A stretch of 64,000 bases of DNA from Rhodobacteraceae bacterium HLUCCA12 (GTDB lineage: Bacteria; Pseudomonadota; Alphaproteobacteria; Rhodobacterales; Rhodobacteraceae): positions 1 to 64,000 of the forward strand of contig LJSV01000011.1 in NCBI GenBank assembly GCA_001314715.1, given 5' to 3'. A program made the translations under genes and the position numbers. Below the pieces are notes generated by a model. It saw nothing but the letters and a program-made list of their open reading frames with translations. It ran no database searches and had not been told where the DNA came from. Every line of letters starts with the position of its first letter. The stretch's first letter is position 1. This document shows, in pieces, positions 2,036 to 21,754 of the stretch.

Positions 2036-2100
2036 GGGGCCGACGTCCCCATGCCATGCCCCGTGGTGTCGCCGCGTGTCCTTGGGTTTACTGACATCCC

Positions 2101-2468: not shown

Positions 2469-2663
2469 TCCCCCCAAGGAGACATCCCCCTTTCATCAGG
2501 ACCAGACAGATTGTTCCCGGCCGGGCTGCGCATATACGGGAGGCTGCCGCGGGCCGCGCCGTTCCACTGGACGCGACCTTGGCGGTTAACCCGTTCATGG
2601 GACAGACTGGCAAGGACCTCTCGAAGGCATCGGCAAGGTTGGCGCAGTTGCGCACCGGAAAGA

Positions 2664-2987: not shown

Positions 2988-3024
2988 GATCTCCGGCGAT
3001 ATAAGGAAGTTGGGACAGCCTGGG

Positions 3025-4020: not shown

Positions 4021-4024
4021 CTGC

Positions 4025-4894: not shown

Positions 4895-4907
4895 GCCTTT
4901 TCCCTGC

Positions 4908-6333: not shown

Positions 6334-6411
6334 CGTCTTTTCACCGTTGCTTGGCGCGATGCGCGGCGTCTGGTGCAATCGGCCCGGATCTTGCCGGGCT
6401 ATGGCGACTGC

Positions 6412-6439
6412 GGGTCCGGCAACCGCGGTTGCCGGACCC
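6412..6439. terminator. Perfect 28-bp palindrome between livK and livG
   Basis: Two 14-base arms pair without mismatch, giving a very stable hairpin between the binding-protein gene and the first ATPase gene. No T-run follows on the minus strand. It probably protects the livK transcript or partly stops transcription, so that the binding protein is made in excess over the channel; that role is inferred from position. Confidence 0.5.
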
Positions 6440-6459
6440 AAAGGATTGTGGTGCTGCGC

Positions 6460-7683
6460 TCACTCGGCCAGCCATTCCGGTGGCATGAAATCGGCGTTTT
6501 GCTGCGTGCCGATGAACAACTGGACATGGCTGTCACCTTGCGCCTGCAACAGGTGCGATGGCAGGGTATCGTCGCCAAGGCTGACATACTGGTCGTCGTT
6601 GAACCGGTAGACGCCGGTCACGCCCTCATAGTTCATGGTGCGAATGGTGTCGTTGATGGCCTCGTAATCGTCGACGCTGCCGACCTGACGCACGGCCTCG
6701 ACCCAGAGCATCAACTCATCATAGATCGCGGCCCCGATGCTGAACGGGGGCGCCGCATCGAACTGGTCGCGCCAGGCCTGTTGAAAGGCTTCGCCGCGCT
6801 CGCCGGGCAAGTGCGCCGACACCGTCATGCCCAGCACGCCCTGCGCGCCGCCATCGGCGATGATCTCCTGAAAGGCGGGGGTGCTGAAGATGTAGCCCGC
6901 ATACAGCAGCGCGTTCTCGGTCGGGTCCTGTGCAAACTGGTCGATGAAGGTGCTGACGCCCGCAGTGTCCAGAAGCTCGAAGAAGACCAGCGCCGGATCG
7001 GCCTCTTTCACGCGGCGATTGATCCCCGACCATTGGCGGTTGTCATAGGGCACTTCCTCTTCCAGCACCACGGTCCAGCCGGCGGCTTCGGCCGCGTCGC
7101 GCACGCCCTCGGCGGCGTTGAGTTCCCAGTCGTAGGGGCCGTGCAGGATGGCGATGGTCTGCGACGGGAAGTCATGATCGAGCGACTGGATCTGTTCAAA
7201 GGTCGCCTGGGCGTAGTTGTAATCGACATCCGACCCCATGAAGATGTTGTCGCACCCGAGGTTGGCGCGCAGGCCGATCACGTTCGATGTGGCGTTGTTG
7301 TTGATATAAGGGACGGGATAGTTGCAGAACGCCGGAATGTCCGGCCCCATTCCGCCATAGCCGTTGATCAGCACATGCGCGCCGTTGCGCGCGACCAGGT
7401 TGTTCCCGGCGGCTTCCAGCTTGTCGGGCGTGAGATCGCCGATGTCGAAGACGTCCAGCTCCAGCGGTCGGCCCAGCAGACCGCCGTCGGCATTCACTTC
7501 GTCCACCGCAAGCTCAAGTCCCATCTGCATCGCGATGCCATCGCTTGCGAAGGGTCCGGTGATCGGGATCGGCGCACCGACGATGATCGGATCGCCATCC
7601 TGCGCCGTGGCCGATGTTGCAAGAAAGCCGGCAGCCGCTATGGCGGCGATTGCCAGGCTGTCGCGAAGGTGTTGTTTTCTCAT
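6460..7683 (-). CDS. livK: Periplasmic ligand-binding protein of the LivK type
   Basis: A 407-residue secreted binding protein. The first ~30 residues are a signal peptide (RKQHLRDSL, a hydrophobic core, then an ATAQDG cleavage region). The mature part starts with DPIIVGAPIPITGPFASDGI, the usual opening of Peripla_BP_6 proteins. It should capture the solute and deliver it to LivHM. The ATG at 7683 has GAGAGGAA ahead in transcription order; a longer frame to 7749 adds a non-signal leader and is rejected. It faces a divergent ureohydrolase gene, so the solute may be a guanidino compound or amide; this is inference. Confidence 0.85.
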   Translation of the reverse strand: MRKQHLRDSLAIAAIAAAGFLATSATAQDGDPIIVGAPIPITGPFASDGIAMQMGLELAVDEVNADGGLLGRPLELDVFDIGDLTPDKLEAAGNNLVARNGAHVLINGYGGMGPDIPAFCNYPVPYINNNATSNVIGLRANLGCDNIFMGSDVDYNYAQATFEQIQSLDHDFPSQTIAILHGPYDWELNAAEGVRDAAEAAGWTVVLEEEVPYDNRQWSGINRRVKEADPALVFFELLDTAGVSTFIDQFAQDPTENALLYAGYIFSTPAFQEIIADGGAQGVLGMTVSAHLPGERGEAFQQAWRDQFDAAPPFSIGAAIYDELMLWVEAVRQVGSVDDYEAINDTIRTMNYEGVTGVYRFNDDQYVSLGDDTLPSHLLQAQGDSHVQLFIGTQQNADFMPPEWLAE

Positions 7684-7873
7684 CAGAAATTCCTCTTCCC
7701 GTTGATATGGCGTGTCGTTTTCCTGCAACGCGTCTTCAAGGCTGCACACTTGGCCTCGATCAGTAAGGCAGAAGGCGCGGACATCACAGCGATCGACGCC
7801 GCGAAATGTGGTCTTGTCCGCACCACGGCATCGATCGCCTGGATCTGTACCTTACGCGTGACGGCAAGTTTGC

Positions 7874-7901
7874 TCCAATGGTGACCGAAGCCACCATTGG
7901 A
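7874..7901. promoter_or_regulatory. Dyad element in the livK/ureohydrolase divergent region
   Basis: The 300-base space between the two divergent genes contains a perfect inverted repeat with 10-base arms (TCCAATGGTG, and its complement) separated by 8 bases. It lies about 80 bases before the ureohydrolase start. A regulator site is the simplest reading; the LuxR-type regulator encoded at 9001-10074 is the nearest candidate. No other structure was seen in the space. Confidence 0.4.
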
Positions 7902-7983
7902 ATGGGTCGCCTATCCGTTCAACGCTGATGCGGTATCGAACACCGGTTTTCAGACTGATCGAGACTTCATGAAAGGGCGAAAG

Positions 7984-8943
7984 ATGACCTCCACGATTGA
8001 CGACGGCAAGTTCTCGGGTTGGCTGCATACGGGTAGCGGTGGCACCTTCATGCGCGCCCCGCGGGTCGCGCCGCAACAGTCCGAGCTGCGCGCGGCGGGC
8101 GTGACAGCCGCAGTGCTGGGTTTCCCGTGGGACGCGATGTGCATCAGCCGTACCGGCACCAACCACGGGCCCCATGCGATCCGCGAGGCCAGCGACCAGT
8201 TCAGCCTGTTCAATGCCAATACCGGGGTCGATCTGAACGATCATTACACCCTTGCCGACTGCGGCGATGTTCCCATCGTTCCCGGCAATGCGATAACCAC
8301 CATGAACCGCGCCGAGGCAATCGTGGACGAGATTCTGGCGGCCGGGGCGATGCCGGTGACGCTGGGTGGCGATCATTCGGTCACGATTGCCTGCGTGCGT
8401 GCCTTTGCCAAGAAGCACAGGAACGCGGGGCTGATCCTGGTGGACAGCCATTTCGACACCGCGCTGGAGGTGGGTGGCGAGGAACTCAGCCATTGCTGCC
8501 CGATCACCCGCGCTGTCGATGCCGGATTCGACCCCAAGAAGATCGTGATCGTTGGCACCAACGGCTGGATGAACCCCAAAAACGAGCTGGACTATATCAA
8601 GGACAACGGCATCACCCTGATGCCCCTTGATGACATTATCGAAAAGGGTGCACAGCGCGTGGGCCGCGAGGCCCGTGAGATCGCGGGAGACGGGACCGAT
8701 AGCGTCTATCTCACCTTTGATATCGACGCGATCGACGGCTCTGCGGCGCCCGGTACCGGCGTTTCGGCGCCCGGCGGGATGACATCGCGCGAGGCGATCG
8801 CGCTCGTGGCCGAACTTGGGCGGGGCGGTCTTGGCGGCATGGATCTGGTCGAAGTGTCGCCCCCCTATGACCATGACGGGATCACCAGCCGGCTTGCGGT
8901 GCGGCTGATCCTCGATATGCTGGCGGCCGGTGCCAGCAAGTAA
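7984..8943 (+). CDS. Ureohydrolase of the agmatinase/arginase family
   Basis: A 319-residue cytosolic enzyme that should hydrolyse a guanidino group to urea and an amine using two Mn (or Ni) ions. The metal motifs are present: GGDHS near 127, DSHFD near 153 (most relatives have DAHxD) and FDIDAID near 243, followed by APGTG. The last motif lacks the usual proline after the final Asp (DG in place of DP). These deviations leave the substrate open: agmatine, guanidinobutyrate, guanidinopropionate or guanidine itself. The ATG at 7984 has GAAAGGGCGA ahead; an ATG at 7969 is weaker. It is divergent from livK. Confidence 0.82.
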   Translation: MTSTIDDGKFSGWLHTGSGGTFMRAPRVAPQQSELRAAGVTAAVLGFPWDAMCISRTGTNHGPHAIREASDQFSLFNANTGVDLNDHYTLADCGDVPIVPGNAITTMNRAEAIVDEILAAGAMPVTLGGDHSVTIACVRAFAKKHRNAGLILVDSHFDTALEVGGEELSHCCPITRAVDAGFDPKKIVIVGTNGWMNPKNELDYIKDNGITLMPLDDIIEKGAQRVGREAREIAGDGTDSVYLTFDIDAIDGSAAPGTGVSAPGGMTSREAIALVAELGRGGLGGMDLVEVSPPYDHDGITSRLAVRLILDMLAAGASK

Positions 8944-8965
8944 GACGCGCCTCCATGCGTCCACC

Positions 8966-8994
8966 GCCGGCTACGGGGTCAGCCCGTGGCCGGC
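8966..8994. terminator. Bidirectional hairpin between convergent genes
   Basis: A 12-bp stem (one G-T pair) with a 5-base loop fills the short gap between the ureohydrolase stop and the LuxR-type gene stop. The arms start GCCGGCTACGGG. No strong T-run is present on either side, so efficiency is uncertain. Confidence 0.5.
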
Positions 8995-9000
8995 GCAACG

Positions 9001-10074
9001 TCAGTGAAATGCGATCACCTCGGCAAGAAACAGGTGGAAAAGCTCGCGCTCGGTGGTGATATCGAGCTTGGTATAGAGCCTCCATCGGTGGTTCTTGACC
9101 GTTCCAACGGAAATATCGAGCTGGCTCGCAATCCGCGAATTGGGGAATCCCAGAAGCGCGAGGCGAAAGATTTCCGCCTCGCGCGGCGTAATTGCGTATT
9201 TCTCGCAAAATTTCTGGATCGCCTGCTCGCCGGAAATGCCGATGGATTCGCCGGATTTGCGTTCAGCCGACAGAATGACCCCGCCCGGCGCCAGGGGCGA
9301 GTTCTCGTCCAGGTCCTCCCAATGAACAAGGGCATCCTTGCCGAGGTCCAGATAGGGCGCCCCTTCCGAACGCTCTTGCAGCGCATGCCGCGCGGTCTCG
9401 GCATCGGTCAGGGCGCTGTCGCGCCAGGCGTCGCTGGAAAACACCGGCTCGCCCTTGGCGTCCAGGATCAGAATGGCGCCCGTGAAATCATCCTTGTCGG
9501 CCTGCGGCGTGGTCCGGCGGTTGCTGAAAAAGCTCTGCAAATGCCTTTGGTGCAACGATACGATCAGCGGCAGCAGGCTGTTCGCATGGTCCTTGTCTTC
9601 GTCGGTGAACATGCCGCGCACGCGCTCGCAGCAGATGGCGATGGTCAGGCCGCCGACGGTCGGCAACAGAAACGCCAGCTCGTCATAGATGAAGGCAATC
9701 TTGAAGATCTGTTCCAGATAATCGGGCTCGACCCGCGGCTGCGAGGTCATCGACCGCAGGTTGACGACCTGCGGCTGCCGGTTCTCGCGCGATAGCTTGC
9801 GCAGCGGGTCGATGCGAAAGAGGCCGCGCAGATAGAACTCGACGGCATCGTCGCTCATTGCGTTGTTGTACAGAAACACGGGTGTGTCGAAGGCGGAATA
9901 CCGCATGACGATCCGCTTTTGGCAATCCAGTGCGCGGGCGGTAAAGGCCGAGATCTCGCGATAGAATGACGACGTGCCCAAGGCATCGACAACTTTTGCC
10001 AGCGCAGCGTAATCCGCGCCGGAACACGACCATCCGGCGCTTTCCATGGGGGTTTTCGGCTTTTTGAACACCAT
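9001..10074 (-). CDS. LuxR-type HTH transcriptional regulator
   Basis: A 357-residue regulator. The last ~60 residues are a LuxR/NarL helix-turn-helix: YAITPREAEIFRLALLGF, then SRIASQLDISVGTVKNHRW as the recognition helix region. The first ~280 residues do not match an autoinducer or receiver domain I recognise; they contain a region reminiscent of a sensory PAS/GAF fold (AILILDAKGEPVFSS). It lies between the ureohydrolase and the amidase gene, convergent with the first and divergent from the second, so it likely controls this nitrogen-compound module. Confidence 0.78.
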   Translation of the reverse strand: MVFKKPKTPMESAGWSCSGADYAALAKVVDALGTSSFYREISAFTARALDCQKRIVMRYSAFDTPVFLYNNAMSDDAVEFYLRGLFRIDPLRKLSRENRQPQVVNLRSMTSQPRVEPDYLEQIFKIAFIYDELAFLLPTVGGLTIAICCERVRGMFTDEDKDHANSLLPLIVSLHQRHLQSFFSNRRTTPQADKDDFTGAILILDAKGEPVFSSDAWRDSALTDAETARHALQERSEGAPYLDLGKDALVHWEDLDENSPLAPGGVILSAERKSGESIGISGEQAIQKFCEKYAITPREAEIFRLALLGFPNSRIASQLDISVGTVKNHRWRLYTKLDITTERELFHLFLAEVIAFH

Positions 10075-10242
10075 GTCCTGTCACCATCCGGGCATGCCTG
10101 TCTTCTTCGACCCGACATCCCTATCATGATCCCAGCAAAGCGCCTTGGAAACCGAAAAGCAATCCGGTGACCGCAGTCATGTTGTGCACGTCTTGAGCGC
10201 CATCTAGGGTGAATGGCAATCGAGGACGCGAGACGAGAATCC

Positions 10243-11016
10243 ATGTTCGCGCTTTACCAAGGCAAGGCCCGGCCCGGCGACCCGGGGCACAACCTGTCCG
10301 TCATCGAATGGGCGGCGGCCGCGTCGGCGGCGGCGGGTGCCAGGCTGCTGGTTGTCCCGGAATTGTTCGTGTCGGGCTATCGTCTGGACGACGAGGTGAT
10401 GGCAACCGCCGAGCCGATCGACGGTGCCTGCGTGGCGAAACTGCGAAAGATTGCCGCCAGGCACTCGGTGGCGCTGGTCGCCGGTTTGCCGGAGAGGGCG
10501 GGCACGCAGCTTTTCAACACGGCGGTTGCGATCGATGCGCGTGGTCACGTGGCGGGGGCCTATCGCAAGATCCATCTGTTCGGTCCGGACGAAACACGGA
10601 TTTTCGCCCCCGGCACGGATCCCTGCGTGGTCGAGGTCGAGGGCGTGCGGATCGGGCTGGCCATCTGCTATGACATCGAGTTCCCCGAGATGGCGCGCGC
10701 GCTGGTGCGCGGCGGTGCTGAAATGATCTGCGTTCCCACCGCAAATATGCATCCCTATGTCAGCGTGCCGACAACGCTGGTCAGGGCACGCGCGCTGGAA
10801 AACGGCGTTCCCGTGATCTATGCCAATCATTGCGGCACCTGCGGGCCGCTGAGCTTTACCGGCGGCAGTTGCATCGTTGCCTTTGACGGCACCGACCATT
10901 TGCGTGCGGGAGCCGGGGATGATGCGACCCTCCTGACATGCGAGGGTCGTAGGCTTTTCGCGAACAGCGAAAACGATCCGCTTCGCAGCACCCAGCTTGC
11001 GGATTTGAGACTTTAG
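10243..11016 (+). CDS. Nitrilase-family amidase (carbon-nitrogen hydrolase)
   Basis: A 257-residue cytosolic hydrolase with the full catalytic set of the family: Glu in VVPELF, Lys in YRKIHLF and Cys in AICYDIEFPEM. It should cleave an amide or carbamoyl C-N bond, releasing ammonia. Start at 10243 gives MFALYQGKA, the normal opening of the family; the ATG at 10213 adds ten polar residues with poor ribosome-site spacing. Next to the ureohydrolase and liv-like transporter it may act on a downstream amide of the same pathway, for example an N-carbamoyl or amide intermediate. The substrate is not deducible. Confidence 0.8.
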   Translation: MFALYQGKARPGDPGHNLSVIEWAAAASAAAGARLLVVPELFVSGYRLDDEVMATAEPIDGACVAKLRKIAARHSVALVAGLPERAGTQLFNTAVAIDARGHVAGAYRKIHLFGPDETRIFAPGTDPCVVEVEGVRIGLAICYDIEFPEMARALVRGGAEMICVPTANMHPYVSVPTTLVRARALENGVPVIYANHCGTCGPLSFTGGSCIVAFDGTDHLRAGAGDDATLLTCEGRRLFANSENDPLRSTQLADLRL

Positions 11017-11212
11017 CGGAACGGAGGAACGGCCTGAGGTGTTCAGTCCCGGCATTTGACGGATTGGATTGACGATGAATCTTTCCCGCTCTGACGCACC
11101 CGATCTTTCAGATGTATTCGTAGGGCGAGATGAACTGATGCGTTGCCGGCCCTCGTCCGATGGTGTGCTGTAAGCCACGAACACAGGCCGATCTCTCCGA
11201 GATGTGCCGAAC

Positions 11213-11241
11213 TTGCAACGTCTTGCGCGTCTCGCTATATG
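11213..11241 (+). promoter_or_regulatory. Sigma-70-like promoter ahead of the sensor-exporter cluster
   Basis: TTGCAA and TATATG are separated by 17 bases in the ~310-base gap after the amidase gene. This is the best promoter match in that gap and would give a transcript starting shortly before the possible leader peptide at 11272. Otherwise nothing recognisable is seen in 11017-11212. Confidence 0.4.
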
Positions 11242-11271
11242 GTTCATATGCAACGCGATTTTTGAGGAGCA

Positions 11272-11334
11272 ATGCTCAGAATTGTCTCGCCGGCCCGGAA
11301 TGCAATGCGACCGCTTGGGCGAGCGGAGTGTTGA
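11272..11334 (+). CDS. Possible 20-residue leader peptide overlapping the MFS gene start
   Basis: A short frame, too short for normal gene calling, begins with ATG at 11272 behind a strong GAGGAG site and codes for MLRIVSPARNAMRPLGRAEC. Its TGA (11332-11334) overlaps the GTG/TTG start codons proposed for the MFS gene (11328/11331), which have no good ribosome site of their own. This arrangement suggests translational coupling or attenuation. It could instead mean that the MFS protein is started elsewhere. Confidence 0.3.
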   Translation: MLRIVSPARNAMRPLGRAEC

Positions 11335-13871
11335 ACAGATTGCAGGCAGCGGCGCTTCGCAAGCTGAACCGCACCAGCATCTTGCTGGGCAGTCTGTTCC
11401 TGCTTCTTGTGGCATTGGCGGCCAGCGCTCTTCTCAGCTTCGCTGCGCTGGAACGCGCACAGGTGGAGCTTCTCTCCGAAGAATACACGCTGGCCGGGCG
11501 TGAAACTGCGGCAGAGATCGAGTATGGCCTTCGCTTTGGTCGGCCGCTCGCGCAATTCATAGGGTTGGAAGATATCCTGGAGGATTTGCGCGGCATGCCT
11601 GGGGTGACAGCCGTGGGCGTTGCGGATAGGCAAGGCGCGCCACTGGGCGACTGGGCATCGGATCTGGAACCCGATCAGGTCGCGGTTGTGGGCACGGCGG
11701 CACGCGACCTTCTGACAGATTTGCCAAGCATTGACGAAGGCGCCCACGCCGGCGCGCCTGTTGCCGATCACACTCATCGCTATTTCCTGACACCGCTACG
11801 CGACCGTGACGATGATCCGGTCGGCGTTCTGGTTGTGGCCGTGCTGTTGTCAGAGCTTTCGATGGCACGGGCACAAGGGGTCACCGAGGCCGTAACGTCG
11901 ATGCTGGTCGTCAGCGTGGTCGCTGCGGGCCTGCTGGCGGTTTCGGCAGGGCGTTTGCGCAGCGCGATGTTTCCCAAACGCAACGGCAAGGCCGCGTCGC
12001 GGTGGCGCTGGATCATTGTTCCATTGGTCGTGCTTCTGTCCGCGCAAACCGCATATGCCGTGTTCGTACTTCAGATCATGCGCACTGATCTGGCAGCCGC
12101 GACGGAAACGGGCGCGGCGCGCATCGTAAACCGCGTCGGCGACGATCTGGATCAGTTGTTATCCCTCGGTCTGGGGTTCGACCGCATGTCGGGCCTGGAC
12201 GCATTGTTGGCCGAGGCGATCTCGCTCAACAGTGCCGTCGAACACCTTTCGATTCATGACCCTTCCGGTGCCGTCCAGATGCGCGTGCTCCGCGAGTTCG
12301 ACGAGGCAGCCGGTTGGCTGACCGGATGGATGCCGGTGCCTCAGTCCGGCCTCATCACGCGCGAGCTTTCTGGGCGCGACGGAAGCCCCGCCGGACAGCT
12401 TGTGGCCCAGATCGACAGCACGCCAATTGCCGCAGGGTTGGCCGATCATGTCATCACGATGCTGACCGTGGCGGCAACCTCAGCCTTCGTCATGATCGAG
12501 CTTTTCATATTGCTGCAGATCGTCCTGAGCCGCGCTGTTGCACGCGATGGCACCGGACCGACTGAAACCGTTGAAACGTCGCTGCCTGAGCAAGAAAGCG
12601 ATGCGTCGCTCTCTGAATCCGAAGCGCACGCGGAAACACGGACGCTGCACCTGGTGGCGCGCCCGGTCATGTTTGCCTTTATCCTGTCCTGGGCGTTGCC
12701 GTTATCGTTCCTGCCGCTGAAAATGCGCAGCCTGGGAGATCAGCTCTGGGGGTTGCCACAAGAGTTGGTGTTTGCATTGCCGATCTCTGCAGAGATGGGC
12801 GCAGCGCTGGTAATGGCGGTGCTTGCAGGGCGAATGGCCGATCGGGTTGGCTGGTCACGGCCCTTTATGGTCGGACTGGCGCTGTCGGCACTGGGCGGTG
12901 TGGGCGCAGCGCTTGCGCCCGACAGCGCCAGCTTTATCCTCGCGCGTGTGGTGACAGGGCTGGGATACGGTCTGGCCTGGATGGGATTGCAGGCTTTCGT
13001 CGTCCAGACCTGCGGTGCTGAACAGCGCGGACAGGCGCTGGCCAATCTGCTGGCAGGAATCCTTGCCGGGTTCATCGTCGGAACCGCGATCGGTGGCATC
13101 GCCGCCGAACAATTCGGCCGGGATACGGTTCTATGGGCAACGGGGTTGACGGTGCTTGCACCGCTGGGAATCGCGCTGATAACGCTGCGGCCGTATCTGG
13201 GAGTGGCCGCACCGCGCGCCGCGGCTTCGGACGGTCGCGCCATACCCGCTGCGGTGCCGTCTGGCTGGGGCCCGCTTTTGCGCAGCCCGGTATACATGGG
13301 AATGATGATCCTCTCGGTGGTGCCGTTTTCAGTTGCGCAGGTCGGGCTTTTGTATTTTGCCGTGCCCCTGCATCTGGATCGTATCGGCGCCGCGGCTTCG
13401 GATGCCGGGCGCATCATGATGGTTTATGGCGTCGTCGTCATCGTGCTTGGCCCGATGCTGAGCCAGTTGATCGACCGAAGCCGGTTCAAGGCACCCATTG
13501 TCGTTGCCGGGGGTCTGGTGGGCGGGCTTGGGCTTATGCTGCTTGTGGCGGATCTGGGGCTTGCCGGGATCTTTCTTGCCGCCGTCTTTCTGAGTTTGTC
13601 GAGCACCTTGATCGAGCCGGCACGCGCGGCGGCAATTCTTCGGCTGCCAGCGGTACGGGCGACCGGGCACGCCTCGGCCCTCGGGTTGCAGCGGGCGGCA
13701 GACAAGCTGGGTCAGATGGTGGGGCCTGTCGCAATCGCAATCATGCTGCCCGCCTTGGATATGATGGACCGCGTCGCCGTGCTGGGCCTCGGTTTCGCTG
13801 TGGCCAGCTTGTTGCTGGCTGCGGTGGTCCTGTGGCGCTACCGCAAGAACAAGGCGTCGGCAGATGTCTGA
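11328..13871 (+). CDS. MFS transporter with two N-terminal periplasmic sensor-like modules
   Basis: About 847 residues if started at GTG 11328; an open frame extends to 11160 but its first 56 residues look non-coding. Order: helix ~18-38, a ~145-residue periplasmic loop, helix ~185-210, helix ~227-252, a ~125-residue periplasmic loop, helix ~376-402, an acidic linker (~405-445), then a full twelve-helix MFS domain. The MFS part has a motif-A-like loop (AGRMADRVGWSRPF) and GYGLAWMGLQAF. The loops resemble Cache-type sensor modules in layout only. An integral transporter whose activity is gated by periplasmic ligands is the likely role. Its stop overlaps the next start by 8 bases. Confidence 0.72.
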   Translation: MLNRLQAAALRKLNRTSILLGSLFLLLVALAASALLSFAALERAQVELLSEEYTLAGRETAAEIEYGLRFGRPLAQFIGLEDILEDLRGMPGVTAVGVADRQGAPLGDWASDLEPDQVAVVGTAARDLLTDLPSIDEGAHAGAPVADHTHRYFLTPLRDRDDDPVGVLVVAVLLSELSMARAQGVTEAVTSMLVVSVVAAGLLAVSAGRLRSAMFPKRNGKAASRWRWIIVPLVVLLSAQTAYAVFVLQIMRTDLAAATETGAARIVNRVGDDLDQLLSLGLGFDRMSGLDALLAEAISLNSAVEHLSIHDPSGAVQMRVLREFDEAAGWLTGWMPVPQSGLITRELSGRDGSPAGQLVAQIDSTPIAAGLADHVITMLTVAATSAFVMIELFILLQIVLSRAVARDGTGPTETVETSLPEQESDASLSESEAHAETRTLHLVARPVMFAFILSWALPLSFLPLKMRSLGDQLWGLPQELVFALPISAEMGAALVMAVLAGRMADRVGWSRPFMVGLALSALGGVGAALAPDSASFILARVVTGLGYGLAWMGLQAFVVQTCGAEQRGQALANLLAGILAGFIVGTAIGGIAAEQFGRDTVLWATGLTVLAPLGIALITLRPYLGVAAPRAAASDGRAIPAAVPSGWGPLLRSPVYMGMMILSVVPFSVAQVGLLYFAVPLHLDRIGAAASDAGRIMMVYGVVVIVLGPMLSQLIDRSRFKAPIVVAGGLVGGLGLMLLVADLGLAGIFLAAVFLSLSSTLIEPARAAAILRLPAVRATGHASALGLQRAADKLGQMVGPVAIAIMLPALDMMDRVAVLGLGFAVASLLLAAVVLWRYRKNKASADV

Positions 13872-15390
13872 TCGGGCTACGCACGCGCTGCCCTCGCTGG
13901 GCGCCGAGATAGAGATGCCGGTTATCGATAACAGTGGCGCCACAGGACTGGTGGATGATCGGTATTTTGCGTCCCTGCGGACATTGCGCGGATCTGCTGC
14001 ACGCATCCAAAGGCTTCACGAGCGAGCCCTTGCAGTCGTGTCCCCAATGGCTGTGAATGGGATCGACAACGGCTGGAACCTGCTGGAAACCGCCCATGCG
14101 CCGGTGGCGGCGGGGCAGGGTGGGCTTTCGCGAATGGCACGCCGGATGCGCGATGACATCGCCGACGTCAGATCCGCTCTGGCAAAGCTGGATCTGCGGC
14201 TGACATCGCTAGCGCAACACCCCACCGCAGGGTCCGGGGCGGCGCTCTATCGACGCGTGGTTGCGCCAAAGCCGATCTATCAATACCTGACCGGTCGGCG
14301 CGGCTGGAACCATGCCGCCGGAATCGACGCCAAGGCCCAGAATGGCCCGACGACCGGCACCAATCCGGACGAGGCCACGACAGTCTTGAACCTCTTGCTG
14401 GCAACGGCACCTGCGTTCATCGCATTGTTTGCCAACAGTCCGTTTGAGAACGGGTGCCGCAGCGGGCAGATGGAAACGCGCATGACGCTGTGGCCCCGCA
14501 TGGTATCGAGCAGCCGGTTTCCGGCGGATCGTGCGCGGGTCGGGCTGCCACCACGGTGGTTCACGTCGCTGGGGGAGTATTTCACCTGGACTTTCGCGCC
14601 GGACACCGTGATGCATGCGGTTCCAGCCGGAAGCGGCAGCTACAAGGGTGACACCGCCCTGTTCGAACCCGACGGCGGGCCGATGAACGCGATGCGCTTT
14701 TTCGCCGGCGGCCCGGTGCAAGGCAGCTCGGTGCAGACCGGCGCGCAAACCCTGCTTACACCCAGTGCCGACCATTTCGTTTTTCTGCAATGGTCCAATT
14801 TTCTGGATTTCCGGATTCGATTTGCCTTTGCCCCACCGGGGCCCGATGTGGCGGATCTCAGCGCGGCATTTGCAGACCCGGCGCGGTTCCTGCCGCTTTT
14901 TCGTGAGCATTCCAGCAACCTCTATATCGAAAACCGGTGCACGGGCGCCAGTTTCTTCGATGCCGACCTTGCCACGCGGGCCCCACGGCAAGCACAGGTG
15001 AGTTGCATGATCGCGCCGCTGGCCTTGCAGGCCGGGCTGACAAAGGCCGCGCGCTTTCATGGCGCAGACTTCTGCGCCCGCTGGCCTGTCGCAAAGGTGG
15101 CGCGACTGCGCGCCCAGGCCATCCGCACGGGTATCGCCCCCCGACAATCCGGCGCGGAGGCGGATGCATTGCGCGCCTTTTGCGCCGAGGTTCTTGGCTT
15201 GGCGCGCAGATACCTGTCCGACAAGGACGCGGAACATCTGTCTTATGCCGATTGGGTGCTGGACACGGGCCTGACGGGTGCGCAGCGGGCGATCGACCAG
15301 CGCGCGCGTATGGGCAAGGCGGGCGCCGGCGTCACCGGCCTGCAAAGATTGAGCCGCGAACGCGAGGTGTTGCCGCCCCCCTTGAGTTGA
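13864..15390 (+). CDS. GCS2-family glutamate-cysteine-ligase-like enzyme
   Basis: A 508-residue protein resembling carboxylate-amine ligases of the GCS2 family (YbdK, EgtA, plant-type GshA). The opening LGAEIEMPVID matches the family's acidic metal/ATP site, the FANSPFENGCRSGQMETRM block near 187-205 corresponds to the NSPxxxGxxTGxxSxR block, and RWFTSLGEYFTWTF near 230 fits the same fold. It should form an amide bond between the gamma-carboxyl of glutamate, or a similar acid, and an amine using ATP. The start overlaps the MFS stop (ATGTCTGA). Placement between two exporters suggests it makes, or modifies, the exported compound. Confidence 0.68.
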   Translation: MSDRATHALPSLGAEIEMPVIDNSGATGLVDDRYFASLRTLRGSAARIQRLHERALAVVSPMAVNGIDNGWNLLETAHAPVAAGQGGLSRMARRMRDDIADVRSALAKLDLRLTSLAQHPTAGSGAALYRRVVAPKPIYQYLTGRRGWNHAAGIDAKAQNGPTTGTNPDEATTVLNLLLATAPAFIALFANSPFENGCRSGQMETRMTLWPRMVSSSRFPADRARVGLPPRWFTSLGEYFTWTFAPDTVMHAVPAGSGSYKGDTALFEPDGGPMNAMRFFAGGPVQGSSVQTGAQTLLTPSADHFVFLQWSNFLDFRIRFAFAPPGPDVADLSAAFADPARFLPLFREHSSNLYIENRCTGASFFDADLATRAPRQAQVSCMIAPLALQAGLTKAARFHGADFCARWPVAKVARLRAQAIRTGIAPRQSGAEADALRAFCAEVLGLARRYLSDKDAEHLSYADWVLDTGLTGAQRAIDQRARMGKAGAGVTGLQRLSREREVLPPPLS

Positions 15391-15447
15391 GGTCCGTGCG
15401 GAATTCCGGACAACGCTGACGGGTTCAAAAGGAAAAGACAACTTGCC

Positions 15448-17736
15448 ATGCGCCACCTTTTGCGTCGAAAACGGGGGTCGTGGGAAAGGACGATGGGCGG
15501 CATGGCACTGAATTTCAGGGACAACGGCACAGACGCGGCGGCTCCGCACGCCAGACCCCAATCTGAAGGGCATGGCCCATTCCCCATTCTCGCAGCGCTT
15601 TGGCGTGTGATGCGCCCTGAGCTGCGCACGCACCGCAAAGAGGTTGTGCAGGATCTGGGATTGGCCCTTGCCGCTGGCGCAGCGGGGGTGGCCGGTCCCT
15701 ATGTGATGTATTTGCTGCTGGCTGCGGCACTGCGCGACCATGCCGTGGCGCCCGTTCCCGTGCTCGCGCTTGGCGCCACAGTGCTGTTTGCGATCTATGC
15801 CGTCCTGCGCAACCTGCATCACAACCACGCGCTGGAAACCACCGAGGCCATGCTGCTGACGCTGAAGATGCGGCTGTTCCGCGCGATAATGCGAAAACCC
15901 ATTGCGTTTCTCGATGCGGTACGCCAGGCGCAGCTTACAAACATGCTTGCTCGCGATCTTGACAAGCTGGCGACAACGCTGCGGCAGAATGCGGGGCCGA
16001 TGCTTGTCGCCGCGCTTCTTGGGGTCGGACTGCTTGGAACGCTGTTGGCGTTGGATTGGCGATTGGGCTTGCTGGTCACCGGGTTGACGGTCATCTATCT
16101 GGTTGGGGCATTGTCCATCCATCGCGCCACGGCGCGTGCCGACTGGAACAACCCCGCGGCCCGTTCCACGCAGCAGCACATCCTGCGCGACATGCTGGAC
16201 GGCGCCCGCGACATCAGGCTCTATCAGACCCAGCACATGCACGAGGCCCGTTTTGCCGAAGCCGCGGACGCCTTGCGACAAAGAGATCTTCGTTTGCACG
16301 AAACCGCGGTGCTCGGTTGGAACTCGGTGGTGGATTTCATCGCATCGATGATCTTGCTGGGTCCGGTATTGCTGGGTGTCTGGCTGCACCTGAGCCCCGA
16401 TGTGGTCGTCCAACCGGAACTGGTGCCCGCGGTTTTGACCTTTTCTGCGCTGATGGCGTCGAACCTACGCAGTTTCGATCGCGGATTGCAGGCGATCGCC
16501 TATCTGGGCCATGCGCTGGAACGGATCGAAACGGTGATTGACTATCCCGAGGAACCGCAACAGCCATCCCCGACGCTGGAGACGATGCCCGACGATCAGA
16601 CCCTGCAGCTCGTCGGCCTCGGTCAACGGTATGGCGATCGAACAATCCTGAAGCGGTTCGATCTGGAGGTGGCAGCGGGTGAGCGCATCGCGCTGACGGG
16701 GCCCAGCGGGGCGGGCAAGACCACACTGGCCAACCTGATCCTTCGGCTGGAAGAACCTGCAACGGGATGCGTGATATTGGGCGGGCAACCCGCGCAATCC
16801 TTTCCGTTGCCGCTGTATCTGAGCTATTTTGCCCATGTCGGGCACCACACGCACCTGTTCCATGCCAGCCTGCGCGACAATATCGCCATGGGGTGGCGAC
16901 ACGTCCCCTTTGCGGATATCGAACGCGCAGCGCGGCTGGTGCGATTGCATGATACGATCTGCCGACTGCCCCAAGGTTATGACACCATGGTCGGCACGGG
17001 CGATCTGAACCTGTCACAAGGGCAAAGGCAGCGTTTGGCCTTGGCGCGCGCGTTGATCCGCGAACCTGCGGTGCTGGTGCTGGACGAGTTCACCTCGGCG
17101 CTTGATGCCGAAACGAAGGCGGCCCTGTTGGATGATCTGTTGGCGGTCTTTGCCGGCACAACCATCATGTGCCTGACCCATGATGCCGACGTGATGGCAC
17201 GGATGGACCGGGTTGTTGAGCTTGCACGTGGCGATACCGCCCGGCAGGCCCATGTCCCACCGGACCCGGACACGCAGCCGGACGGGGGCACAACGCCAGA
17301 ACCGACGCACCGCATTGACGAAAACGCGGCAGTCCTGCATCTGCCAGCCAAGACTGCGATGCTTGAGCGATTGGCACAATGGGTAGAGCTGTGCGCCGAA
17401 CACCGGCTGATCCCGCGTGACATGGTGTTCCAAATCAATCTGGTGCTGGATGAATTGGTCAGCAACATCATCTCTCATGGTCAATCGGAGGCGGCGGACA
17501 CCGGAATGATCGACATCGTTTTGGAGCGGGGCGAAGAGGGTGTAACGCTCACCCTGGAGGATGATGGCGTGCCCTTCGATCCCACGCAGGCGCCGCCGGC
17601 GGATACCGACGCGCCGCTGGACCAGCGGGCGGTCGGAGGGCTTGGGCTGCATTTTGTGCGTAGCTTCATGGATGACGTTACCTATCGACACGCTGACGGT
17701 CGCAACAAGCTGATCCTGACGCGAAGAGTCGCGTAA
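15448..17736 (+). CDS. ABC exporter half-transporter fused to an RsbW-like HATPase domain
   Basis: 762 residues from ATG 15448; ATGs at 15493 and 15502 are also possible. Residues ~50-345 are an ABC exporter membrane domain. Residues ~380-595 are the ATPase: Walker A GPSGAGKTT (~417), signature LSQGQRQR (~521), Walker B LVLDEFTSALD (~543), H-loop LTHDAD. After a proline-rich linker, residues ~625-760 form a GHKL ATPase like the anti-sigma kinase RsbW: N-box LDELVSNIISHG (~667), DDGVPFDP and GGLGLHFVRSFMDDV (~729). I know of no standard exporter with this tail. STAS and SpoIIE genes follow, so the tail probably receives a partner-switch signal. Confidence 0.85.
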   Translation: MRHLLRRKRGSWERTMGGMALNFRDNGTDAAAPHARPQSEGHGPFPILAALWRVMRPELRTHRKEVVQDLGLALAAGAAGVAGPYVMYLLLAAALRDHAVAPVPVLALGATVLFAIYAVLRNLHHNHALETTEAMLLTLKMRLFRAIMRKPIAFLDAVRQAQLTNMLARDLDKLATTLRQNAGPMLVAALLGVGLLGTLLALDWRLGLLVTGLTVIYLVGALSIHRATARADWNNPAARSTQQHILRDMLDGARDIRLYQTQHMHEARFAEAADALRQRDLRLHETAVLGWNSVVDFIASMILLGPVLLGVWLHLSPDVVVQPELVPAVLTFSALMASNLRSFDRGLQAIAYLGHALERIETVIDYPEEPQQPSPTLETMPDDQTLQLVGLGQRYGDRTILKRFDLEVAAGERIALTGPSGAGKTTLANLILRLEEPATGCVILGGQPAQSFPLPLYLSYFAHVGHHTHLFHASLRDNIAMGWRHVPFADIERAARLVRLHDTICRLPQGYDTMVGTGDLNLSQGQRQRLALARALIREPAVLVLDEFTSALDAETKAALLDDLLAVFAGTTIMCLTHDADVMARMDRVVELARGDTARQAHVPPDPDTQPDGGTTPEPTHRIDENAAVLHLPAKTAMLERLAQWVELCAEHRLIPRDMVFQINLVLDELVSNIISHGQSEAADTGMIDIVLERGEEGVTLTLEDDGVPFDPTQAPPADTDAPLDQRAVGGLGLHFVRSFMDDVTYRHADGRNKLILTRRVA

Positions 17737-17737
17737 A

Positions 17738-17763
17738 CCTCACCCGCAGGAATGCGGGCGAGG
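17738..17763 (+). terminator. Hairpin after the ABC-HATPase gene
   Basis: An 11-bp stem with one A-C mismatch closes a GGAA tetraloop directly after the stop codon. Only a weak T-containing tail follows (GGTCTTG). It may stop or reduce transcription before the STAS-phosphatase genes. Confidence 0.45.
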
Positions 17764-18102
17764 GGTCTTGCATGGTCAGGTTGCGTCTCGAATTGGCGCC
17801 GTGTAGCCTGCGGATAAATCGCGGCATCATGAAAGAGAAGGGGCGCGGGAAATCCTGGCGGGACGGGACAACACAACGCAAATGTGCAGCGGTGCAGGCA
17901 TGCGATGCAGTCTTGCGCGACAGAAGACGGCATAGGGCCTTTCGCGCCGTTTTCGTTGCCGTCCGTAGATACCGCGCTTGCACGTGAAGCGCGCGGCAAT
18001 GAGGAACGGTCGATACAACGCCCTGGCGGCATGAACCGCGTGAATAGAACTTGAAACGGGCAGCCCCGCTGGCGCTGGCCACAATCGAAAGAGGCAATAC
18101 TT
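17764..18102. other. Gap before the STAS gene
   Basis: About 340 bases without a convincing gene. A 7-bp inverted repeat (17973-17979 with 17987-17993, loop GCACGTG) is the only clear structure. The stretch may carry the promoter of the STAS-phosphatase-binding protein unit. Confidence 0.35.
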
Positions 18103-18453
18103 GTGGCCGAACAACTCAGCGTCACCCATGAGCGTGAAGGTCCAATTGCGGTTGTCCATGTGCGCGGGCGCATCGACAGTGCGACATCGCCGGAATTCGA
18201 AGGTCAGCTGGGCACCGTCTTTGCCAATCCGCCCGATGCCCTGATCATTGATCTGGCCGAGTTGGACTACATGAGCAGCGCGGGTCTTCGCGTGCTCTTG
18301 ATTATCGCCAAGCGCGCAAAAGCCGAAGGGTACCCACTTGTGTTGTGCAATCTGGCACCCGGAATCCGCGAGGTTTTTGATATCAGCGGTTTCACCGCAA
18401 TCTTCGATATTGCCTCAACCCGCGCCGAAGCCTTGGCCCGGGTGCGCAGCTGA
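18103..18453 (+). CDS. STAS-domain anti-sigma-factor-antagonist-like protein
   Basis: A 116-residue single-domain STAS protein. The phosphorylatable serine is expected in LDYMSSAGLRVLL (~residues 56-60), and the IDSATSPEFEGQL helix is typical. In Bacillus-like partner switching such a protein is phosphorylated by an RsbW-type kinase and dephosphorylated by a SpoIIE-type phosphatase. Both activities are encoded next to it here, but the kinase-like domain sits on an ABC exporter. The start is GTG at 18103 with AAAGAGG 8 bases upstream. Confidence 0.88.
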   Translation: MAEQLSVTHEREGPIAVVHVRGRIDSATSPEFEGQLGTVFANPPDALIIDLAELDYMSSAGLRVLLIIAKRAKAEGYPLVLCNLAPGIREVFDISGFTAIFDIASTRAEALARVRS

Positions 18454-18479
18454 CACAGGCCTTCGTCAGGGGGGCAGGC

Positions 18480-20525
18480 ATGTTGCGGTCGCTCAGATTT
18501 CAGCTTTTTGCCGGGCTCGTGGTTATCCTGACAACTGCGGCACTGACGATCACGGTTTCGACCCGCGATCAGATGCGCGACGCTTTGATCGGCGCCGAAA
18601 CCCGTGCCGCGCGCAATGTCCTGAGTCAGATCGAAATGCAGGTCTCCAACCGCTACCGCGAGTTGCTGTCCGAGAAGCTGCGCATTGTCAGTGAGCGGCG
18701 CAGTGCGCTGGAGCATATCGGCGCGGTCACGGTCGCGGCGGCCGAGGCGCATGAAACGCTTGTCACCGACGGAATTGCGGGCCAGGAGGAGGCAAGGGCG
18801 CTGACGCTCGATTTCCTCGACGGTGTCGCCCCCGGCGGGTCTGTGCAGACCTTTGCCATGACCCGCAGCGGTCAGGTTCTGGCGCATTCCGATGACCGGC
18901 AGCGGGGCCGTGATTTCAGCACGCAAACGGATATCAAGGGCCGATCCCTGCCCGCGGCGGTGGAAGAAGACATAGCCCTGGATGGCCATGCCTATATCCT
19001 TTTTGACGACAGTGACGCAGATGATACCGAGGGCGACGCCCGAGACGGGCGGCGCTTTGCCCATTTCCGGGACGTGCCGGCACTGGATCTTTATATCGGT
19101 GTGTCAGACCGCATTGACGATGTCGAACGCTATGTCGAAACCGGCGTCGAGGCCACGATCGATATGCTGTCCGAGACACTGGCAGACGTCTCCGTCGTCG
19201 ATACGGGCTTTGTTTTCATCCTGAACGATGCGCTGGAGATCGTGACCCCACCCGCCGATTGGGCAGCCCCAATGTTGAACCGGCAAGATCCGGCCAGTGG
19301 CATCCCCATACCCGAATTGCTTGCCGCCGCAGCGCAGGACGGCGACGCAACGGCAACCCGCTACACTTTGCCGGGGCCTGAGGCGTCGATCGACATGGAA
19401 GCCTATGTCAGCTACTTTCGGCCGTTGGGGTGGTATATTGTCAGCACCGTTCCCACCGCCGAGATCAACCGACCTGCCAATGCCCTGATCCGGCAACAGA
19501 GCGTGATCTTTGCGATCGTGCTGGGCATTGCGCTGTTGCTGGCCTGGTTGTTCGCGCTGACGTTGACCGGTCCGCTGCAACGTCTGACGCAGTATGCGCG
19601 CCGGCTTCCCGAACAGGACTTCCTGCACCCGAGCGGGGCGCATGGCGCGCTGGACCGGTTGGTGCGCACCCACTCCGAAGTCGGCGCGTTGGCGCAGACC
19701 CTTCGGTTCATGGAAGATGAGTTGCGCGACAAGATCGGTGTGCTGCTTGATGCCACACGCGAAAAGGAACGGATCGAAAGCGAGCTGAACATCGCCCGCG
19801 ATATCCAGCAAGGCCTTCTGCCAAAGATCTTCCCGCCCTTTCCCGACAATCCCCGGATCGACCTGCATGCATCGCTGACGCCGGCCCAGCATGTCGGCGG
19901 CGATCTGTTCGACTTCTACTTTCTGGATGACCACCGGCTGCTGTTCACGGTTGGGGACGTTGCCGACAAGGGCGTTCCCTCGGCACTGTTCATGGCAATC
20001 ACAAAGACCCTGGTGAAATCTGCAAGCGGGCAGGAGACCGATCCGGCCCTGATGATGCGACGCGTCAATGAAGCCCTGAGCACGGACAATCCGCGTGCAA
20101 TGTTTGTAACGCTTTTCGTCGGTATCCTTGATATCCGGACAGGCTGGATCGAATATGCCAACGCCGGGCAGAACCCGCCGATCCTTGTGCCAGCCAGCGG
20201 GGACGTATCGCTGGTGCGCCCGATCAGTGGGCCGCCCGCCGGCGTGCTGGAAGGGGTGGCCTACGATTGCCTGAACCTCAGACTTATGCCCGGCGACACC
20301 CTCATGGTCTATACCGACGGGGTGACGGAAGCCATGAATGCGGCCAACGAGGAATATGGCACAGACCGGCTGCTGGCCCTTTCGCAGTCCTTGCGCGGGC
20401 ACGGCGCGTCCGGGTTTGTGGACGGGGTGCTGGACGATGTGCGCCAGCACTCCGGCAGCGCGCTTCAATCGGATGATCTGACGTTGTTGTGCCTGCGCTG
20501 GCACAATTTCTCGCCAAAGAAATGA
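18480..20525 (+). CDS. Membrane SpoIIE-type PP2C phosphatase with Cache-like sensor and HAMP
   Basis: A 681-residue protein. A helix at ~8-26 leads into a large periplasmic sensor (~30-330) of double-Cache type. A second helix (~338-358) is followed by a HAMP segment, a short coiled coil (TREKERIESELNIARDIQQG) and a SpoIIE phosphatase (~445-675). Metal-binding motifs are intact: GGDLFDF, GDVADKGVPSALFM, YTDGVTEAMN and SDDLTLL. It should dephosphorylate the STAS partner encoded 26 bases upstream when a periplasmic ligand is sensed. A run of six G stands just before the ATG. Confidence 0.9.
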   Translation: MLRSLRFQLFAGLVVILTTAALTITVSTRDQMRDALIGAETRAARNVLSQIEMQVSNRYRELLSEKLRIVSERRSALEHIGAVTVAAAEAHETLVTDGIAGQEEARALTLDFLDGVAPGGSVQTFAMTRSGQVLAHSDDRQRGRDFSTQTDIKGRSLPAAVEEDIALDGHAYILFDDSDADDTEGDARDGRRFAHFRDVPALDLYIGVSDRIDDVERYVETGVEATIDMLSETLADVSVVDTGFVFILNDALEIVTPPADWAAPMLNRQDPASGIPIPELLAAAAQDGDATATRYTLPGPEASIDMEAYVSYFRPLGWYIVSTVPTAEINRPANALIRQQSVIFAIVLGIALLLAWLFALTLTGPLQRLTQYARRLPEQDFLHPSGAHGALDRLVRTHSEVGALAQTLRFMEDELRDKIGVLLDATREKERIESELNIARDIQQGLLPKIFPPFPDNPRIDLHASLTPAQHVGGDLFDFYFLDDHRLLFTVGDVADKGVPSALFMAITKTLVKSASGQETDPALMMRRVNEALSTDNPRAMFVTLFVGILDIRTGWIEYANAGQNPPILVPASGDVSLVRPISGPPAGVLEGVAYDCLNLRLMPGDTLMVYTDGVTEAMNAANEEYGTDRLLALSQSLRGHGASGFVDGVLDDVRQHSGSALQSDDLTLLCLRWHNFSPKK

Positions 20526-20560
20526 CCCCTGACGCACCCCAGTATTGCGGAGAGCCAAGC

Positions 20561-21754
20561 ATGATAACCCTGCGACCTTCACGCAAGCGGTCCGACAGCC
20601 TGACGACGGTAATGCTGACATCAATTCTGTTTGCGGCAGGTGTTCTGGCCTCGTCGGTCACGGCTCAGGATACCTATCCCACGACCCCAACCCTGTCACC
20701 CGAGGGCGAGCGCTGGCGACTGGGTTATCTGGAAGGCGGGCAGTATGTTGATTATGAAACGATCACCACGGCCACCATACGCGGGTTGATGGACCTTGGC
20801 TGGATCGAACCGACAGACCTGCCCACCGAACAAGGCGCCGAGGCCGGAGATTTCTGGCGCTGGTTCGCCGAAAATCTCGAAAGCGATTACATCGAGATCG
20901 TGCCAGACGCGTATTACACCGCGGGGGATTTCGACAGCGACCAGCGCCCCGACACCCGCGAAGCCATCCTCGACCGGCTGACAGAGTCCGGTGACATCGA
21001 CCTGGTCATTGCCATGGGCACCTGGGCCGGGCAGGACTTGCGGGTCGACGGTCTGGACGTGCCCGTCGTCGTCGGCTCGACAAGCGATCCGGTGGGTGCG
21101 GGTATTGTCGACAGTCATTCGGACAGCGGAATGGACCACCTGCATGCGCGGGTCGAGACGGATCGATACCAGATACAGCTGCGGCTTTTCCACGATATCA
21201 TCGACTTCGAACGGTTGGGCATCGTCTATTCCGACACCCGTGAGGGGCGCACCTTTGGCGGGGTCGATGCCGTGGAAGAGATCGCCGCGGAGCGTGGATT
21301 CGAGGTCGTTTCCTGTGACGCCCCTTATACCGGCCTGCCGCTGAGTGATGTCGAGGCGGCTGTGATCAGCTGTTACGACGAAGTCGCTGCGCAGGTCGAT
21401 GCGATCTATGTGACCGTGCATCGTGGCGTGAACCGCGATTCCCTGCCCAGGATCATGCAAGGCATCAATCGAAATCTGGTTCCCACCTTTTCCATGCTGG
21501 GATCGAGCGAGGTTCAGCGCGGGGTGTTGATGAGCATTGCGCAAGCTGATTTTTCGCATGTGGGCATGTTTCACGCGCAAACCATCGCGCGCATTTTCAA
21601 CGGCGCGTCGCCGCGTGCGTTGCCGCAGGAATGGAGCGCCCCGCCCAAGATCGCGCTGAACCTCGCTGCGGCCGAACGGATCGGCTATGATCCGCCCGTC
21701 GACCTGCTTCTGGCAAGCGACGAAATCTACGAAACCATTGACACCCCGGATTGA
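20561..21754 (+). CDS. Periplasmic binding protein of the ABC_sub_bind/TrpX type, no cognate permease nearby
   Basis: A 397-residue exported protein. The signal peptide has a basic start (RPSRKRSD), a hydrophobic core and an AxA-like end before QDTYP. The rest resembles ABC substrate-binding proteins of the TrpX group: two lobes, with GTWAGQDLRV and VVVGSTSDPVGAG in the first. No permease or ATPase of the matching importer lies next to it. Its place 35 bases after the phosphatase gene suggests that it presents a ligand to the phosphatase's periplasmic sensor instead of to a transporter. An upstream ATG overlaps the phosphatase and lacks a signal-like start. Confidence 0.72.
   Translation: MITLRPSRKRSDSLTTVMLTSILFAAGVLASSVTAQDTYPTTPTLSPEGERWRLGYLEGGQYVDYETITTATIRGLMDLGWIEPTDLPTEQGAEAGDFWRWFAENLESDYIEIVPDAYYTAGDFDSDQRPDTREAILDRLTESGDIDLVIAMGTWAGQDLRVDGLDVPVVVGSTSDPVGAGIVDSHSDSGMDHLHARVETDRYQIQLRLFHDIIDFERLGIVYSDTREGRTFGGVDAVEEIAAERGFEVVSCDAPYTGLPLSDVEAAVISCYDEVAAQVDAIYVTVHRGVNRDSLPRIMQGINRNLVPTFSMLGSSEVQRGVLMSIAQADFSHVGMFHAQTIARIFNGASPRALPQEWSAPPKIALNLAAAERIGYDPPVDLLLASDEIYETIDTPD

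Follow-up and report, generated by a model that had tools for sequence, protein, structure and literature searches.

A possible make-export-sense gene cassette in a Rhodobacteraceae bacterium with a partner-switch kinase domain fused to an ABC exporter

Partner switches are best known for controlling sigma factors. What is such a switch for when its kinase-like domain is part of an ATP-binding cassette (ABC) exporter? This question is raised by six co-directional genes on the + strand of a 64,000-nucleotide stretch of DNA from Rhodobacteraceae bacterium HLUCCA12 (contig LJSV01000011.1, positions 1 to 64,000, in the following the window), which is part of a 112,312-base contig (C50) of a 3.7-Mb genome. 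They encode a major facilitator superfamily (MFS) transporter with two additional N-terminal modules (P0001), a GCS2-type carboxylate-amine ligase (P0002), an ABC exporter with a C-terminal RsbW-like domain (P0003), a STAS antagonist (P0004), a SpoIIE phosphatase with a Cache sensor (P0005), and a periplasmic binding protein of family PF04392 (P0006). An earlier reading of the sequence alone, the sequence-only reading, had named these domains and proposed that the switch sets export through the kinase-like tail of P0003; a check of open reading frames (ORFs) together with Pfam matches bore out the six genes and their domains at roughly the positions that it had given. The answer that we put forward, and to which we give an even chance of being right, is that the locus is a make-export-sense cassette whose switch, in this genome, gates an exporter.

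The fusion itself is one frame of 762 amino acids with Pfam matches to ABC_membrane (2e-21) and ABC_tran (1.2e-24), both above cut-off and representing a type IV transmembrane domain (TMD) fused to a nucleotide-binding domain (NBD), and to HATPase_c_2 (1.1e-23, residues 633-758). A second fusion of the same layout (759 amino acids) is encoded in Lutimaribacter sp. EGI FJ00013 (locus L086, 6786-9065), and it is therefore unlikely that P0003 is a frameshift or an assembly artefact. The two proteins are 75% identical in the TMD, 82% in the NBD and 66% in the kinase domain as compared to 17% in the linker that precedes it, which argues that the fused tail is constrained; the first and second codon positions of the tail are likewise constrained between the two genera. 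Walker A, signature, Walker B and H-loop are readable by eye in the NBD, and the HATPase domain retains intact N, G1 and G2 motifs. The solved structures nearest to the tail are the anti-sigma F factor SpoIIAB and RsbW. Searches with full-length P0003, in which the best two to three candidates per genome were scored, returned only the window's own copy from 292 genomes of the order (at 1e-110) and from 394 genomes of 393 genera of the family (at 1e-85), and one further ABC protein from 385 genomes of the class (at 1e-75). The latter (G532) aligns to residues 43-593 and thus does not have the kinase tail. The Lutimaribacter fusion was found through a scan for GCS2 genes and not through these searches. 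Neither a plasmid search with the whole fusion nor a search of viral contigs gave a match. In the data searched, the ABC-kinase fusion is very rare, with the window and Lutimaribacter as the only cases.

The gene set around the fusion has a much wider distribution. Nine loci with GCS2 genes of the P0002 type were compared: the window, L086, L087, L088 (in genome G074, a genus-mate), L099/L043 (genome G367), L089, L102, L103 and L104. Of these, L086-L088 were selected via GCS2, the G367 locus via the kinase, and L089 and L102-L104 via the binding protein; the contig scan for GCS2 used two short peptide patterns, and more such loci may exist. A full gene for the sensor-MFS protein lies beside GCS2 in eight of the nine; L087, an 11.7-kb contig that may not reach as far as the rest of the set, shows a C-terminal MFS piece only. 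In Lutimaribacter all six genes recur in identical order (69-79% identity per gene). The only other fusion is thus accompanied by the complete set, and a fusion gene whose neighbours are not conserved, which would have spoken against the sequence-only reading, was not encountered. Ahead of the STAS gene, Lutimaribacter additionally carries a stand-alone HATPase gene, followed by roughly 1 kb of further sequence. A transposase suggested by eye between this second HATPase gene and the STAS gene (9650-10670) was discarded, as the longest + strand frame has no Pfam match. In G367, HATPase-STAS-SpoIIE-binding protein genes are convergent with GCS2-MFS; on plasmid pAU20a of Aureimonas sp. AU20, of which the plasmid alone was seen, SpoIIE-binding protein genes are convergent with GCS2-MFS; in three genomes from a single genus of another family, SpoIIE-binding protein genes face GCS2-MFS and a HATPase+STAS pair is found elsewhere in the genome; and in G074, MFS-GCS2 (on a contig of 98,501 bases) and HATPase-STAS-SpoIIE-binding protein reside on separate contigs, i.e., they co-occur without visible linkage. 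The claim of the sequence-only reading that the genes belong together is thus upheld, since GCS2, MFS, SpoIIE and binding protein genes co-occur even when rearranged or unlinked. GCS2 proteins of the P0002 type are otherwise rare: 60 other genera of the family that were sampled gave two weak matches (E 4e-4 and 9e-4), 17 genus-mates one close and one weak match, and 72,556 plasmid records a single one, the Aureimonas plasmid.

The position of the kinase differs between these loci. A stand-alone kinase gene is located at the STAS gene in Lutimaribacter, G074 and G367, the latter two having no adjoining ABC exporter, whereas the window locus has the fused kinase only, and no remnant of a stand-alone kinase was found in the 366 bases that separate the fusion gene from the STAS gene. 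In a tree of 14 HATPase domains, the three stand-alone kinases group together with 91/91 support, just under the mark for firm support, with an inner pair at 100/100. The two fused tails form a branch of their own (100/100, stem 1.1), the placement of which among the other domains is settled neither here nor in an earlier tree of 41 rows. A stand-alone kinase next to STAS is probably ancestral to the cluster and was probably lost in the window genome, and the fusion seems to have arisen late, within a cassette of wider distribution. The sequence-only reading was right about a genuine fusion and about the gene set. Its placing of the fusion at the core of the system is not supported, because the kinase stands alone in G367 and G074 and the fused HATPase domains branch separately, and it missed that other variants of the cassette exist, in which the amino-acid enzyme is interchangeable.

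The components of an Rsb-type module are present at the locus. The STAS domain of P0004 (7e-21) contains the motif YMSSAGL, which aligns to FMDSSGL and YMDSAGL of SpoIIAA (1th8) and TM1442 (1sbo), so that the position of the phosphorylatable serine is kept. P0005 combines dCache_2 (2e-19) and SpoIIE (1e-47), with a HAMP match below cut-off, and has the metal-binding aspartate motifs GGD, GDV..KG, TDG and DD..T, presumably the phosphatase motifs. Since the STAS serine, the phosphatase and the kinase motifs are intact, a kinase should still be required for the switch to work, and the locus offers none but the fused tail. A cognate sigma factor, which an anti-sigma switch would be expected to have there, is missing: none of the eight Sigma70_r2 matches in the genome is on C50. 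The absence of a nearby sigma factor gene, as first claimed, accordingly holds for sigma-70 types; sigma-54 was not searched. The only other HATPase_c_2 above the Pfam cut-off in the window genome is on contig C51 beside a STAS gene of its own (L098, 8772-9683; STAS motif DSSG), a pair that may correspond to RbaVW. On the sensory side, P0006 matches ABC_sub_bind (PF04392; E 4.7e-16, 59.3 bits with a gathering threshold of 25.9) and misses the cut-off of the TrpX equivalog model (58.3 of 390 bits). TrpX-type proteins bind aromatic amino acids. An amino-acid-like ligand would fit P0006, judging from the TrpX-type match and from the closest solved relatives (3lkv, 6hni and 3lft).

On this basis, the following sequence of events can be envisaged. 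The GCS2 ligase would make an amino-acid conjugate, the sensor-MFS protein would export it, and the PF04392 protein together with the periplasmic Cache/PDC-like modules would read the conjugate, or a related compound, outside of the inner membrane. This signal would set the SpoIIE phosphatase and lead to dephosphorylation of the STAS protein. In the ancestral state, a stand-alone RsbW-like kinase would rephosphorylate STAS and carry the output. In the window genome, unphosphorylated STAS would most likely dock on the exporter tail and change export, because the locus has no stand-alone kinase and the tail is its only RsbW-like domain.

The ligase P0002 matches GCS2 with E 4.4e-12 (46.4 bits, Pfam gathering threshold 21), with only residues 87-214 aligned; 93 of its residues, including E15 and E17, are invariant in nine sequences, i.e., the window protein and eight relatives. 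It stays below the cut-off of every NCBIfam model matched, and far under those for EgtA (34 of 370.8 bits), YbdK (32.5 of 176.4) and plant-type GshA (15 of 463), and it weakly resembles the plant glutamate-cysteine ligases 2gwc/6gmo (E 0.004). In P0001, the MFS_1 domain (E 3.9e-27) covers residues 504-841. The N-terminal 400 residues consist of two homologous modules, each with a periplasmic part between transmembrane segments and neither with a Pfam match; the flanking hydrophobic segments, a common profile that matches both, and the conservation of the tandem in relatives agree with the sequence-only reading on two added periplasmic modules. The profile was built over four rounds in which matches below E 1e-4 were added, and drift is possible. 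A PDC-like fold of the module is a lead, not a result: similarities to solved structures are weak (sensor domain 3lif, E 0.002; CitA and DcuS, 0.09-0.8) and unrelated chains, e.g., a tendon repeat protein at 0.045, are also among the matches. The nearest PDB entries for the MFS domain are EfpA, NorA and VMAT, all of them weak.

Links between RsbW-like kinases and ABC transporters are also encountered elsewhere. Among 37 loci fetched around relatives of the kinase, nine have an ABC gene within the stretch, three of them in the same apparent operon and the other six at a distance of 0.7-7.6 kb. Five of the matches with frames of more than 550 amino acids (in G634, G612, G515, G388 and G393) were left out of this set, and L069, L072 and L075 were scanned only for matches to the queries from the window and to the module profile. 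In L063 (G486), the order is STAS-SpoIIE, further genes, a GlnQ-like ATPase and, after 6 bases, the HATPase gene, followed by NHLM-type HlyD/ABC1/ABC2 exporter genes above NCBIfam cut-offs. In L052 (G667, from the window's family), STAS-SpoIIE and further genes precede an amino-acid-type binding protein/permease and a GlnQ-like ATPase, with the HATPase gene 9 bases behind. In L058 (G714, 1067-7367), a PrtD-type exporter (type I secretion ABC) and HlyD are followed after 6 bases by an RsbW-like HATPase gene. These three arrangements support a kinase-transporter link in two other families. The NHLM-type genes of L063 (1-17001) belong to bacteriocin exporters, and the SpoIIE protein of this locus bears the sensor module; in L058 an RTX-repeat protein is encoded on the other strand. 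Long frames in L053, L056 and L059 were rejected as further kinase fusions, their N-terminal parts resembling a mis-extended non-coding reading with no Pfam domain. At L057 (7798-9630, genome G597), a HATPase domain is preceded by a cyclase-like domain (Guanylate_cyc, E 3e-4, 20.9 of 21.9 bits), near genes for a module-MFS protein, a binding protein and an alanine racemase.

The sensor module leads to a wider group of loci. Its profile matched 22 of 54 genomes in a mixed sample, most of which had been picked for kinase matches, and 26 loci with module-bearing MFS genes were mapped, several of them from one genus; their annotation is largely based on our own ORF calls and phmmer/HMM matches. 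A PF04392 binding protein is encoded in 25 of the 26 (the exception, L088, has one on another contig). Eight loci had been fetched via the binding protein, and 17 of the remaining 18 contain it. Ten of the binding proteins were run against Pfam and all exceeded the cut-off, one of them from L117, a locus with module and binding protein and no MFS gene. An amino-acid enzyme was identified in 18 of the 26 loci: GCS2 in eight (with the window, L086 and L088 chosen by GCS2), an ATP-grasp enzyme resembling D-Ala-D-Ala ligase in five, alanine racemase in four (three Azospirillum plasmids according to the deposited annotation, each with a GNAT gene, and L057 according to Pfam), and GNAT alone in one. 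Formyltransferase and TauD dioxygenase occur in one further locus each, and in six no enzyme was recognized, not every neighbour having been scanned there. Genes for SpoIIE, STAS or HATPase proteins lie in 16 of the 26 loci, and in eight of the 18 that remain when the window and the loci chosen by kinase are set aside. Among these eight, three genomes share one genus and two share a second one; most of L109-L116 lie in genomes whose own selection had been based on kinase matches. In L111, L112, L052 and L063 the same module is carried by the SpoIIE protein itself, and in two of the three Azospirillum plasmids an adenylate cyclase gene adjoins the set instead. Modules without an MFS gene were also seen beside a SpoIIE-like protein (L118, 7400-12161, G391) and beside a PF04392 binding protein (L117, 6071-8123, G424). 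Plasmid searches with the window's sensor modules or with the MFS protein of L056 gave no match, and a search with the L093 sensors found Azospirillum (8) and Aureimonas (1) only. It is possible, though we hold it tentatively, that all this reflects a hitherto unrecognized family of bacterial self-sensing cassettes in which an interchangeable amino-acid enzyme (GCS2 ligase, ATP-grasp ligase, alanine racemase or acetyltransferase) makes a small signal and an MFS exporter with the new PDC-like module, often in tandem, releases it. The signal would then be sensed by the PF04392 protein and the modules, with the output coming from a partner switch or nucleotide cyclase and in some lineages acting directly on ABC exporters.

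Several observations weigh against the make-export-sense reading with an exporter gated by the switch. Lutimaribacter keeps a stand-alone kinase as well, so that the fused tail may have another role, and, given the rarity of the fusion, the cassette does not depend on a link between kinase and exporter. The tail has diverged more than the ABC part (differences at second codon positions 0.23 vs. 0.09-0.10). As read by eye, the Q-loop position is occupied by His and not Gln in both fusions, and transport activity of P0003 is therefore not certain. Besides drug-efflux models, the MFS domain of P0001 matches symporter models (MhpT, aromatic acid/H+ symport), all below cut-off; export by P0001 is suggested by a weak similarity to efflux proteins, and the symporter models match about as weakly. 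The ATPase next to the kinase gene is of the importer type in two of the three operon-like ABC cases (L063 and L052), no SpoIIE, STAS or kinase gene was seen in the stretch of ten of the 18 module-MFS loci not chosen by kinase, and the STAS+HATPase pair on C51 could cross-talk.

It is conceivable, if rather unlikely, that the fused tail serves only as the cognate kinase and is parked on a membrane protein, the exporter being unregulated and the output lying with STAS or with STAS bound to another target. For SypA, and for RbaV from Rhodobacter capsulatus, a member of the same order, a STAS protein has been reported or proposed to be the output (PMC8256260, PMC3999984), and the same switch occurs without an adjoining ABC exporter in G367 and G074. 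A parked kinase would, however, leave unexplained why the in-frame joining to the exporter is kept in two genera and why RsbW-like genes lie beside ABC transporter genes elsewhere. An ordinary anti-sigma switch, in which the tail keeps a sigma factor from another locus at the membrane until unphosphorylated STAS frees it, appears improbable to us; the kinship of the tail to SpoIIAB and RsbW and the eight sigma-70 region 2 matches in the genome would suit it, and the location of all eight on other contigs speaks against it. We regard it as very improbable that a fusion accident left the tail behind as a dead or structural remnant and that the six genes have separate jobs in a neighbourhood that was moved horizontally. 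The sporadic distribution of the fusion points in this direction, but the motifs of the tail are intact, its first and second codon positions are constrained across two genera, albeit less than the rest of the protein, and the genes of the set stay together in several arrangements and are jointly present, on different contigs, in G074.

The features of the locus are compiled in Table 1. Some ORF starts are over-extended: that of P0001 is probably near 11340 according to an alignment, and that of P0006 is probably an ATG near 20561, as judged by eye. The last 8 bases of the MFS frame are shared with the GCS2 frame. The hairpin in the gap behind the fusion gene has a predicted energy of -27.2 kcal/mol for 67 nt (z -2.0; 9 of 200 shuffles equally good) and is not among the terminator-like sites predicted in the window. 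Because of this gap and its hairpin, it is possible that the six genes form two transcripts rather than one. Rfam and tRNA scans of the window returned no match.

Table 1. Features of the six-gene locus in the window
Feature	Position	Strand	Basis or remark
MFS transporter P0001 with two N-terminal transmembrane-periplasmic-transmembrane modules	11160..13871	+	Pfam MFS_1; real start probably near 11340
Sensor modules of P0001	~11382-11963 and ~12012-12533	+	profile match
GCS2-superfamily carboxylate-amine ligase P0002	13864..15390	+	Pfam GCS2
ABC exporter (ABCB/MsbA/CydDC-like TMD+NBD) with C-terminal RsbW/SpoIIAB-like HATPase_c_2, P0003	15448..17736	+	Pfam
RsbW-like HATPase domain of the P0003 fusion	17293..17733	+	Pfam HATPase_c_2; N, G1, G2 motifs intact
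366-base gap between fusion gene and STAS gene	17737..18102	+	hairpin at 5' end
STAS antagonist P0004	18103..18453	+	Pfam STAS; serine motif YMSSAGL
dCache_2-(HAMP below cut-off)-SpoIIE phosphatase P0005	18480..20525	+	Pfam
PF04392 (TrpX-type) periplasmic binding protein P0006	20489..21754	+	Pfam ABC_sub_bind

Upstream (window 3025-11016), mostly on the - strand, are genes for a branched-chain/urea-type ABC transporter (BPD_transp_2, two ABC ATPases, Peripla_BP_6) and a LuxR-type regulator, and a CN_hydrolase gene (10213-11016) lies on the + strand. The latter was rejected as part of the operon, as it is absent from six of seven distinct loci (nine stretches) and L087 has a different one. In L087, a urea/amide-type transporter, an AmiR-type regulator and CN_hydrolase are encoded beside the MFS piece and GCS2. 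Downstream, on the - strand (window 26819-28018), is a gene for PhnJ (E 1e-143) that probably belongs to a phosphonate C-P lyase cluster.

With the kinase built into the exporter and no stand-alone kinase at the locus, it can be tested directly whether such a switch is able to control transport itself, and the fusion hints that partner switches may control transport and not gene expression only. The wider cassette provides concrete genomes and enzymes for finding new amino-acid-derived exported compounds and their receptors. Neither an ABC-RsbW fusion nor such a cassette is named in the titles and abstract openings of the open-licence literature searched, which is weak evidence of absence. Compared to ABCB/MsbA/CydDC-type exporters, P0003 has the same TMD+NBD layout, but it remains below the cut-off for CydC (224.9 of 329.05) and carries the kinase tail. 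SiaA of the SiaABCD system of Pseudomonas is a membrane SpoIIE phosphatase with a periplasmic sensor, as is P0005, which scores only 55.9 of 700 bits on the SiaA model NF038263; there is no diguanylate cyclase among the six genes. The RsbU/RsbV/RsbW and SpoIIE/SpoIIAA/SpoIIAB systems of Bacillus likewise comprise a SpoIIE-type phosphatase, a STAS protein with the serine and a HATPase_c_2 domain with intact motifs, whereas in the window the kinase is part of an ABC exporter, the contig shows no sigma-70 gene, and the set is accompanied by a ligase, a sensor-MFS protein and a binding protein. RbaVWY of R. capsulatus is likewise a Rhodobacterales partner switch without a known sigma factor, but differs in the REC sensor of RbaY and in rbaVW being a predicted two-gene operon (PMC3999984).

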